Virus record (IMG/VR): IMGVR_UViG_3300009158_000035
Span: 62,001 to 126,000 of that record
Reading direction: 5' to 3' (one strand)
DNA from: a virus
DNA: 64,000 nt
A program made the position numbers and the translations under genes. Below, piece by piece: positions 32,871 to 35,827 of the stretch (its first letter is position 1; every line of letters begins with the position of its first letter). Below the pieces are notes generated by a model. That model was not told where the DNA came from and made no database searches. It saw only the letters and a program-made list of their open reading frames with translations.

Positions 32871-32900
32871 TTGTACTTTTTATCAAAACACTGGTATAAT
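32871..32900 (+). promoter_or_regulatory. tmRNA promoter
   Basis: TTGTAC (32871-32876), 18-base spacer, TATAAT (32895-32900) with an extended -10 TGG in front (32892-32894). Transcription from about 32907 leaves a ~23-base leader removed at the tmRNA 5' end. Confidence 0.6.
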
Positions 32901-32929
32901 ATGTTGCAGTAGAAATCTATTAGCCTTTT

Positions 32930-33401
32930 GGGGGTGATCTGGTTTCGACTTAGTAAGTTAGTATATGAACTCAGCCGAGGAAGCCTGGTGGGCCTCGTTA
33001 AAATCTCTGGGCAAAAACTAAACGCCAATTCCAACGAATTCGCGCCTAGCGTGGCAGAAGCTGATGCAATCCTGGCCTCCTTCGGGTACCAGGACGCTGA
33101 AGTTTTGCTTGCTGCTTAATCGCAGCGAGCTTGCTCGCAGGTCAGGACCTAGGATAGGGGTTACCTAGTGGTTGAGAAACACCACAAAATCCTTAACGTT
33201 AGATCGAGTAATTATATGGTCAGACCTCGTTAAAAGTCTGATAATATGCCTGCAGGGGAGAAGATTGTTGAGCATTAGCAAAAACAATCGGTTTTTCTGG
33301 TTGACTTCCGGGGCACTTATAGAAAATAATCAGAACAAGCTGTAGAAAGTTCATATATTGAAGTATTAAGGACAGGGGTTCAACTCCCCTCACCTCCACC
33401 A
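32930..33401 (+). ncRNA. ssrA: Transfer-messenger RNA, 472 nt
   Basis: Rescues stalled ribosomes by acting as tRNA-Ala and then as an mRNA for a degradation tag. Seen directly: 5' GGGGGTG (32930-32936), followed by ATCTGGTTTCGAC, pairs with CACCTCC (33391-33397). The third pair is G-U, the alanine identity element. Discriminator A and encoded CCA end at 33401. The T arm AGGGG/CCCCT carries the loop TTCAACT. The tag frame probably runs 33024-33119: it begins ANSNEF, ends EVLLAA, and is 31 residues. An A at -4 before the GCC resume codon fits the family rule. A GCGAGC/GCTCGC hairpin follows the tag stop, as expected for pseudoknot-rich tmRNA. It is longer than common tmRNAs (about 350-400 nt). 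Confidence 0.9.
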
Positions 33402-33424
33402 CTTTCTGCTAGCCTAATAACCTT

Positions 33425-33646
33425 ATGGCAAGCACAGTACAACCAATCGCATCAGTACAATTCCAATTAGATCCTTTGTTCGCCACAATGCTGGCCGCAA
33501 ACGATCACAGACAGAGAAATGCATTACCTTCACACACAGAAGGCACTGTGCAACAGAATACGCATTTGTTGCCTGCAGTGACATTGTATAATTCTCACGG
33601 AATTTTGCAAAAGAGTAATCCCAACTCTTTGATTGGTTACGCTTAG
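33425..33646 (+). CDS. Small hypothetical protein, 73 aa
   Basis: Not recognised. ATG 33425 lies 24 bases after the tmRNA end and the stop lies 7 bases before the tRNA, so it fills the gap exactly. Start context is A/T-rich without Shine-Dalgarno, like other genes here. The protein is hydrophilic with a Gln/Asn-rich middle. If real, it is co-transcribed with the RNA genes. A spurious ORF is possible. Confidence 0.4.
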   Translation: MASTVQPIASVQFQLDPLFATMLAANDHRQRNALPSHTEGTVQQNTHLLPAVTLYNSHGILQKSNPNSLIGYA

Positions 33647-33652
33647 TTAAAT

Positions 33653-33728
33653 CGCGAGGTGGACAAGTGGTTAAGTCGCCAGTCTCATAAGCTGGAGATC
33701 GGAGGTTCGAATCCTCCCCTTGCAACCA
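33653..33728 (+). tRNA. tRNA with CAT anticodon (Met/Ile2 type)
   Basis: Complete 76-nt cloverleaf with encoded CCA: acceptor CGCGAGG/CCTTGCA, D stem GAC/GTC with GG in the loop, anticodon stem CCAGT/GCTGG around CTCATAA, T stem GGAGG/CCTCC with TTCGAAT. The first acceptor pair is C-A, a mismatch normally found in bacterial initiator tRNA. However, the anticodon stem lacks the three consecutive G-C pairs of initiators. It could be elongator Met, initiator-like, or Ile2 if its C34 is converted to lysidine. Confidence 0.9.
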
Positions 33729-33730
33729 AT

Positions 33731-33830
33731 TTTCCTGTAGCTCAGTGGTAGAGCGCTGCTCCCTCATGGTGAAGGACCTAAACGCAGGGATATAGCAGCG
33801 GCCGTAGGGTTCGATTCCCGACCAGGAAAT
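33731..33830 (+). tRNA. tRNA-like element with 33-nt anticodon loop
   Basis: Acceptor TTTCCTG (33731-33737) pairs perfectly with CAGGAAA (33823-33829). It has the standard T8/A9, D stem GCTC/GAGC with AGTGGTA loop, anticodon stem CTGCT (33756-33760) with AGCAG (33794-33798), and a T arm with GGG TTCGATT CCC. The anticodon loop is 33 nt instead of 7, and it contains CCCT/AGGG pairing. The T stem has an extra or mismatched base, and no CCA follows. Options: a tRNA with a ~26-nt intron, a decayed tRNA, or a tRNA-like domain of the RNA that follows. The amino acid cannot be assigned. Confidence 0.55.
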
Positions 33831-33839
33831 AAATTTCAT

Positions 33840-34520
33840 GAATAGGTACGCATGAAAAAATAAGTCGTGAGTGTTTTGATGTATCTGGGGTAAACGTGTG
33901 TCGTGTTTACATGGCTTTTCTGGCTAAAGCTACCTAGAAAGTTTCAGGTTGCCTGTCTCCAGCAACTCGTCTAACCACGACGGAGACGCTTATTTGCCCA
34001 CAACAAGTTTAAAAATGTGGTGGTGGAGGCGCAGGAGAAATCTTGCGCCCTCGGAGACCAGGCCCGTCAGACTTCTAGTCACCTGGATTTAGCGGCAGCG
34101 TTCGGCAGGTTAAGATCGAGAAAGAAAAAGCAGCAAATCAGTTGAGCAGTGTTCGCTGTAAAGAACAATATATTATAACGCAACTATAATTGGTTTTATA
34201 GACCTTTAAGGTTGAAGTTGTTAAGTGCCGCAATGAAATTAGTAGTTGCGGAAAGAATGCATGGCTCAATAACGAGTAAGTATTCAGGCAGATAGATAGT
34301 AAGGCTACTTGACTTCTTCAAGTTAACACACCTTTTGATTAAGTGTGTGTAAGGGCTCTCACTGGCCCGCAGCACTACATGAAGCACCTGTACGCAGGTG
34401 ATCTCTCGCGGTACTCGACCTGTCGAACTCTGCCGCTTGTTGTGGTAGAGTTGGTGTTAGTTTGTTCATATTGCTTGTAAGTAACCGCCCTCCTGTCACT
34501 GTAATGGTGGCAGGAGGGCA
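33840..34520 (+). ncRNA. Candidate large structured non-coding RNA, ~680 nt
   Basis: No supported protein gene is present, yet hairpins are dense: GTAAAC/GTTTAC (33890-33910), CCACA/TGTGG (about 33998-34020), an 8-bp GGCGCAGG/CTTGCGCC (34028-34049), CCAGG/CCTGG enclosing GACT/AGTC (34058-34086), ACACAC/GTGTGT (34326-34350), CACCTG-TACG-CAGGTG with a UNCG-class tetraloop (34385-34400), and a 13-bp final hairpin (34487-34519). Exact limits are unknown; a TATAAT at 34185-34190 might split it into two units. Location next to tRNA genes in a large phage fits the large ornate RNA classes GOLLD and ROOL, but no consensus was verified. Not group I intron- or RNase P-like by eye. Confidence 0.5.
34487..34519. 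terminator. Strong 13-bp hairpin between convergent units
   Basis: GCCCTCCTGTCAC (34487-34499) pairs with GTGGCAGGAGGGC (34507-34519), one U-G pair, 7-base loop. There is no T-run on either side, so it may end the RNA island's transcript by structure, act as a 3' stabiliser, or serve the minus-strand gene that ends at 34547. Confidence 0.5.
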
Positions 34521-34546
34521 TGCAGTACGATACACCGTTTCTTTAG

Positions 34547-35827
34547 CTATTCGGCAGCTGTCACGATTTTAACATTATGGCAGGTCATCTGAATCATTGT
34601 GATTAACTGCCTTACATATTTTTCATTAATGAATGGTATGCCTAGCCCCATACCTAAAAACATCTTTCTGATCCCTTTGGTGAACAGATGGCAAGACATA
34701 AAGTATTTGTCTTCCATCTCAAAGGGAACAGCATGTTCTTCGTAATACACCATTCCGCACCATATAAATTCCTCGTCGTTTTTTTTACGTATCTGCTGAA
34801 TGTCTAGCGTGAAGTTTGTTAACTGCTCTTCCTCGTTCTTTTTAACGAGATAGTATGCCTTGTCCCGTTTGAGGTATGTTTTGCCCTGCACAGTGAATTG
34901 TTGCTCTCGGCTCTTCATCCAGAAGTCGGTTAGCTGCTGTCCGCTCTTTTTTTCCAGCTCTAGTAGCTGATTATAGTTTAATGCAGCTACATGGTTTCTA
35001 AGATCGTCGTTGCCCTGCTTGCCCAGCATCAGCTCCAGGATATCTACATTGAATTTAGCGTGCTTTGCTTCGCTCCAGATTCTGATGAGCTGCTCTGTGC
35101 TTAGCATATCTGATAGCTGGATAGGCGATGTATTCCAATGGTCGTTCTTATAGTTCCAGGTATTGCCTGTCTTGACTTTGAGCTCGTTAAAATCCCGGAC
35201 AATTTCAACACCCTGACGACCATACCATCCATATTCCCCATTAAGAAACACCGTCTCGCGCTGGTTTAAATCGCTGAGCCTAGCTAGCTCTAATGAGCAG
35301 ATATGTTTAGGTGAACAGAACGACGGAATCATCACGGTCTTCTTATAGCGGTACTTACTATCTAGTGACAGCTTAGGAAAAGCTTTCAATACCTTCTCAG
35401 TCAGATACCCGAACTTGTTATTAAGAAGCTCAGACATTCCGGCCTCGTCAAGTACGTCTTTAAAGTGTACAACCTTATCATGCATTCTAGCTCTGGCGGT
35501 ATGTGCTTCCTGCACACTCAACAGCCATACAGATTGATACTGCATGATCTTTGTCTGGTCTTTAAAAAGGTTCTTCTCAGCATATTCACTATATGGTAGA
35601 CTGAAATCAAAGCAGTCGTTAAAATCTCTACATACAATACCATAAAGTCGGCGCCAGTCCTCGATAGGAAAGAAATCAAAAATGTTGCCTACAAAGTCGT
35701 TTGTTTTAGATTTTGCGTACCAACCGAACAAAGGAATACGTACAAACTCATAGTCGGATGTATTTCCTCCAAGCTTTGCCACTACACTGGGTAGATTGAT
35801 TTTAGAATTGAAACTGTTTAACAACAT
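34547..35827 (-). CDS. Unknown protein, 426 aa, minus strand
   Basis: Not recognised. Soluble, alpha/beta, without signal peptide or membrane segment. The segment KKTVMIPSFCSPKHICSLEL (residues ~165-185) has the sound of a 'IP-F-SP-RI' strand-turn found in some phage replication proteins with TOPRIM-like domains, but acidic catalytic clusters were not seen, so this is only a hint. The gene is transcribed toward the RNA island and diverges from the next gene across just 20 bases. It is isolated from other minus-strand genes. Confidence 0.6.
   Translation of the reverse strand: MLLNSFNSKINLPSVVAKLGGNTSDYEFVRIPLFGWYAKSKTNDFVGNIFDFFPIEDWRRLYGIVCRDFNDCFDFSLPYSEYAEKNLFKDQTKIMQYQSVWLLSVQEAHTARARMHDKVVHFKDVLDEAGMSELLNNKFGYLTEKVLKAFPKLSLDSKYRYKKTVMIPSFCSPKHICSLELARLSDLNQRETVFLNGEYGWYGRQGVEIVRDFNELKVKTGNTWNYKNDHWNTSPIQLSDMLSTEQLIRIWSEAKHAKFNVDILELMLGKQGNDDLRNHVAALNYNQLLELEKKSGQQLTDFWMKSREQQFTVQGKTYLKRDKAYYLVKKNEEEQLTNFTLDIQQIRKKNDEEFIWCGMVYYEEHAVPFEMEDKYFMSCHLFTKGIRKMFLGMGLGIPFINEKYVRQLITMIQMTCHNVKIVTAAE

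Follow-up and report, generated by a model that had tools for sequence, protein, structure and literature searches.

The window, by which we mean the whole 64,000-nucleotide stretch of DNA analysed here, covers positions 62001-126000 of a 167,754-base virus record. The phage has genes for a tail sheath, a family A DNA polymerase and a terminase of the GpA type, and it is a large contractile-tailed phage of an uncultured group. A close cultured relative was not found, the best match of the terminase being Salmonella phage Arash at 29.5% identity. The features at the RNA locus are the following:

32893-32906, + strand: promoter motif GGTATAATATGTTG, where the transcription unit likely starts
32930-33401, + strand: tmRNA
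33425-33646, + strand: 73-codon frame between the tmRNA and tRNA-Met
33653-33728, + strand: tRNA-Met(CAT), found by Rfam and ARAGORN
33731-33829, + strand: tRNA-like element
33862-33987, + strand: module A, a predicted three-way junction with a pseudoknot
33998-34086, + strand: module B, predicted to comprise helix H0, a UGGUGG joint, helix H1 and an H-type pseudoknot
34091-34437, + strand: domain G, predicted to be large and multi-branched
34426-34452, + strand: alternative hairpin AACUCUGCCGC/GUGGUAGAGUU, which competes with the helix closing domain G
34487-34519, + strand: terminal hairpin, a probable (bidirectional) terminator
34547-35827, - strand: convergent gene of 426 aa, the next gene 3' of the RNA

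The promoter motif has two matches in the window against 0.05 expected, and its position makes it the likely start of a unit in which the tmRNA, the tRNA and the RNA would be transcribed together. The related motif GGTATAAT is present 32-69 bases 5' of the tmRNA in 10 of the 11 relatives checked, with none found in L187; a weaker TGTATAAT is also present at 33585, within the 73-codon frame. The initial annotation correctly placed a tRNA and a tRNA-like element 5' of the RNA and overlooked the tmRNA, which is identified by Rfam (RF00023, E = 1.3e-48), by ARAGORN and by the translation of its tag. Read by hand in frame from 33024, the tag is ANSNEFAPSVAEADAILASFGYQDAEVLLAA, in agreement with the long tags of the relatives, and the tag given by ARAGORN (AASLLAGQDLG) is likely wrong. 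The small 73-aa protein is conserved, with a similar one in L005 and no PHROG match found. The tRNA-like element scores 31.4 bits with the Rfam tRNA model, and 46.2 bits in L003 (4833-4931, - strand), and was not called by ARAGORN. Its anticodon arm has an extension of about 30 nt, CUCCCUCAYGGUKAAGGRCCWAAAYGCWGGGAUA, which is common to the window and L003; the element may mimic a tRNA, or may be a tRNA that contains an unusual mini-intron. At the same locus in L182 (7930-8139, - strand) and L201, a group I intron lies inside tRNA-Met, and the same sequence occurs in L004; the intron is followed by a further insert that resembles an oppositely oriented coding frame. The 426-aa gene is conserved at 55-91% within the phage group. 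Searches of Pfam and PHROG gave no match to it, and none was found in GTDB genomes or GenBank phages.

Between the tRNA-like element and this convergent gene, the + strand of 33860-34519 is a real, non-coding and highly structured RNA of about 630-660 nt. The initial annotation had proposed a large RNA at 33840-34520, and the large RNA stands with its start corrected to near 33860. The stretch is indeed free of genes, as had been claimed. No credible reading frame was found in it, the longest on the + strand being 47 aa, and comparison with the homologous RNA of L002 gives no coding signal: of 18 gaps, 14 have a length not divisible by 3, and the substitutions have no codon phase (50/55/45). 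The conserved protein frame that had been named as an argument against an RNA is thus missing, and a protein-coding reading is rejected on frame length, gap sizes and substitution phase. The folding energy of 33830-34530 is well below that of dinucleotide-shuffled sequences (z = -5.6; 20 shuffles). Without the terminator, the z-score is -4.4 for the window and -5.4 for L002, versus +0.3/-0.05 for a nearby coding control. The terminal hairpin itself (-27 kcal/mol) was annotated at the right place with 13 bp, where we count 14, and most relatives have a hairpin at the same site. A 10-bp long-range pairing, CCACAACAAG/CUUGUUGUGG, appears in the minimum free energy fold of the window; it is absent from L002 and was left out of the conserved fold.

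Relatives of the locus were gathered from IMG/VR with the neighbouring 426-aa gene as bait, and they belong to the same phage group; the upstream gene, used in the same way, returned the L002 contig again and nothing more. L002, whose 426-aa gene is 91% identical to that of the window, has the homologous RNA at the equivalent position, with 68.7% identity over 831 aligned columns, and it is the one full-length relative of the RNA in the data. The structure of domain G comes from these two sequences, folded together with RNAalifold. Its closing helix is predicted to be long-range and interrupted, with 30 pairs between 34091-34125 and 34402-34437, and it encloses about eight internal hairpins. 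Over 34087-34530 (444 nt; domain G and the terminal hairpin), all 98 predicted pairs are kept between the window and L002 and none is broken; 13 of them carry compensatory double changes, seven of these in the closing helix. When the partners are slid by 1-3 columns, pairing falls to 32-46%. The alignment without the terminator has a consensus energy of -84.7, versus -41.4 +/- 4.5 for column shuffles (z = -9.6), and the antisense strand gives a weaker signal (z = -7.7). The covariation that the initial annotation had suggested looking for in related phage contigs is therefore strong against L002, and, together with the folding excess, it bears out the proposal of a large ornate RNA adjoining phage tRNA genes. 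The UNCG-type hairpin described earlier, CACCTG-UACG-CAGGTG, is present at 34385-34400; its loop is not kept in L002, and the tetraloop was for this reason rejected as a conserved or defining element.

Module A could be examined in more than two sequences. Its predicted stems are P1 (UCGUG/CACGA), P2 (GAUG/CGUC), the P3 hairpin (33890-33910) and P4 (GGUUG/CAACU), with the loop of P4, the last hairpin, forming a pseudoknot with the 3' tail (GUCUCC/GGAGAC). At this site L005, L010 and L012 have short sequences that share, with small variations, the pattern GUCGUGAGU...CUCCAGCA......CUAACCACG. A covariance model built from these three sequences only finds the window at E = 1.7e-11 and L002 at E = 3.2e-11, as the sole matches in 276 kb, which is an independent test of module A. 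In the five sequences, 98.4% of the cells are paired and 11 pairs have changed on both sides, some of them in the pseudoknot, a number reached by 1 of 500 shuffles; the alignment was fitted to the model and leans towards it, the pseudoknot being outside the model.

Module B consists of H0 (33998-34020), the conserved UGGUGG joint, H1 with a GAAA loop (about 34026-34051) and an H-type pseudoknot of S1 and S2 (34052-34086; CCAGG/CCUGG). Two elements of the initial annotation are found here, the GGCGCAGG stem at about 34028-34049 with its GAAA cap and the nested CCAGG/GACT element at 34058-34086. The layout is common to the window, L002, L010, L192, L003 and L011, in all of which except L011 the second hairpin ends in GAAA, and shorter forms in L006 and L015 keep the pseudoknot. 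S1 varies as GACG/CGUC, ACUG/CAGU, GCUG/CAGC, GGUG/CAUC, CGG/CCG and UGG/CCA, and is just 3 bp in the window; S2 varies as CCAGG/CCUGG, CCGAG/CUCGG and CCAGA/UCUGG. All 30 cells of S1 and all 40 of S2 pair, and when strands are swapped between sequences the figures fall to 58% and 84%. By hand alignment and hand counting, S1, S2 and H0 covary in up to eight sequences. The covariance model R2, which covers the hairpin part of module B, finds L011, a sequence outside the model, at E = 0.005. These comparisons show for A, B and G a predicted secondary structure that is evolutionarily conserved, including two pseudoknots. Two independently occurring pseudoknot modules joined to a large domain is an architecture that the initial annotation did not foresee.

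The end of domain G has a further feature. The segment AACUCUGCC (34426-34434) can pair either with the 5' strand of G or with GGUAGAGUU just 3' of it, the latter giving the hairpin at 34426-34452, with a calculated energy of -16.3 kcal/mol on its own. The hairpin is conserved in L002, which permits both pairings, its upstream and downstream strands being the same nine bases. The thermodynamic model prefers the long-range helix by 5.7 kcal/mol in the window and by 10.3 kcal/mol in L002. One could hypothesize that this element serves strand exchange or intermolecular pairing.

The distribution of the modules among the cousin phages is informative about how the RNA may have been put together. 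Of 22 loci with a complete site, A is present in 5, B or its short form in 9, G in 2, and neither A nor B in 11, with A and B together in 3 (window, L002, L010); this tally is our own reading, and it includes near-identical pairs, so that the loci are not all independent. At this one site, and followed by the same terminator, cousins have A alone, B alone or A and B together, and in the whole phage records searched A and B are single-copy and found at this locus only. Many cousins, for example L008, L013 and L187, have a tmRNA without any module. L006 has module B with no tmRNA beside it and with its own GGTATAAT promoter motif 31 bases upstream, and therefore B can stand alone; L012 has module A, again with no tmRNA beside it. 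A and B thus appear to be independent RNAs, and since they occur singly or joined, the large RNA looks like an accretion of small cassettes, in which the window RNA would be A and B extended by G. We infer that the direction of change was growth rather than loss. The same pattern of presence and absence could also be compatible with a dispensable or cis-processing role. In L014, the same cassette site, which lies there between 6480 (tmRNA) and about 6280 (426-aa gene), is occupied by a different, structured-looking insert of about 150 bases with the nested inverted repeats UUGUUUUAC/GUAAAACAA and ACAGG/CCUGU.

Searches against known RNA families gave a consistent result. Rfam covariance models, run up to E = 10 on both strands of 33400-34600, returned only tRNA-related and chance matches, weak hits to lncRNA and miRNA families being among the latter; neither GOLLD (both strands) nor ROOL scored at E <= 10, and both were absent from ten relative loci at the Rfam gathering thresholds. 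The membership in GOLLD or ROOL that had been suggested is therefore not borne out, and the suggestion that the RNA could be a new class gains ground, as no Rfam family matches it. At E <= 10 the window RNA likewise has no match to the pistol, twister, hatchet, HDV-like or hammerhead ribozymes, and the window has none to group I or group II introns. The same library does detect pistol ribozymes at other genomic positions in two distant relatives (L016:9517-9584 and L198:11417-11484, both - strand). It also matches abiF RNAs 5' of a phage gene in L010 (3103-3139, - strand) and L013 (3868-3905, - strand), with no AbiF protein seen nearby in L010. A distant blastn search of GenBank phages gave only tRNA matches among the matches listed. 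Scans of IMG/VR with five module and domain patterns found nothing beyond the same phage group, and those of GTDB genomes found three matches to the core of module A, all in Morganella, which the model did not confirm; both scans demand near-exact short cores and would miss diverged members.

We consider 33860-34519 to be a new trans-acting structured phage RNA, unrelated in sequence to known families, with a probability of about 0.7. It is a new RNA class within a known kind, the ornate phage RNAs, with few members known. A riboswitch acting in cis is not indicated at this locus, where the RNA ends in a terminator-like hairpin and the only downstream gene is convergent; a leader controlling a downstream gene is excluded on the latter ground, and with no sense gene downstream a trans-acting accessory RNA is the most likely reading. 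Because the upstream promoter motif is that of the tmRNA, co-transcription followed by tRNA and tmRNA processing would be the simplest route to it. Transcription of the RNA would begin at the promoter 5' of the tmRNA and end at the hairpin 34487-34519, and 5' and 3' processing of the tmRNA and tRNA would release it; it may accumulate late in infection. A binding or sequestering role has been proposed for GOLLD and ROOL, and we tentatively suggest that the present RNA, as a stable accessory molecule, likewise binds or sequesters either a protein or a translation component.

Two other functions are each unlikely in our judgement. Module A, and perhaps B, could be a self-cleaving ribozyme of a new type, or a new processing element, through which the tmRNA/tRNA transcript matures, with G as a passenger. 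The modules are pseudoknotted, 80-130 nt long, have conserved unpaired bases and lie 3' of a tmRNA and tRNA, and pistol ribozymes do occur elsewhere in the relatives. However, no Rfam ribozyme matches them, their strand order differs from that of the HDV-like fold, the tRNA-like end in the window is separated from module A by about 30 nt, and modules are also present with no adjacent tmRNA or tRNA in L006 and L012. The closest comparison is with the theta (HDV-like) ribozymes, compact pseudoknotted RNAs that process the 3' ends of phage tRNAs (PMC10879173), from which the modules differ in strand order, in having no Rfam ribozyme match and in being found also where there is no tRNA or tmRNA. 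The RNA could equally be a decoy directed at a defence of the host, such as a CRISPR effector or a toxin-antitoxin system. Its fast gain and loss among close relatives fits an arms race, and abiF-type RNAs, whose family is associated with a phage-encoded abortive-infection system (PMC12373285), occur in two cousins; yet those matches lie elsewhere and have no sequence relation to the modules, and neither a cognate protein nor the repeats typical of RNA antitoxins were seen.

It is rather improbable that the modules serve to block nucleases or to stabilise the tmRNA/tRNA transcript in its 3' part, even though they lie nearly always just 5' of the terminator. Module A has the strand order of the flaviviral exonuclease-resistant RNAs (the xrRNA L3-S4 pseudoknot), a three-way junction whose 3' hairpin loop is pseudoknotted to a downstream strand (PMC5760640), but it has no sequence relation to them and belongs to a bacterial virus. 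A likeness of topology is in itself a weak argument, and cousins with a tmRNA and no module, or with a module and no tmRNA, speak against such a role. A divergent GOLLD or ROOL beyond the reach of the Rfam models is very unlikely: the RNA resembles ROOL in being a large ornate non-coding phage RNA near tRNA genes, with two covariation-supported pseudoknots, and GOLLD in being phage-borne, modular, with a conserved and a less conserved half, and near tRNA-Met, both families often lying near tRNA islands and one GOLLD downstream of a Met-tRNA (PMC12286853), but no model matches it up to E = 10, it follows a tmRNA, its conserved parts are short 5' pseudoknot modules with the large part rarer, and A and B are also found by themselves as small RNAs, unlike the description of those families (PMC12286853).

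The reading of a new trans-acting RNA can be carried one step further, as a tentative proposal. The RNA may represent a novel class of giant ornate phage RNA, formed 3' of the tmRNA by stepwise fusion of free-standing pseudoknotted RNAs (A; B; A and B; A, B and G), with the conserved strand-exchange element at 34426-34452 able to switch or to cross-link molecules into an oligomer.

To our knowledge, only a handful of giant structured RNAs of bacteria and phages have been described. The locus adds a new one, whose apparent intermediate forms are still extant, so that the sequences may reveal the route by which small pseudoknot RNAs became a large RNA of several domains. It also ties ornate RNAs to tmRNA operons, and the compact size of the modules (90-130 nt) makes them suited to structural and biochemical tests. 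The small separate RNAs of the cousin phages suggest how a giant folded RNA could arise from small ones.
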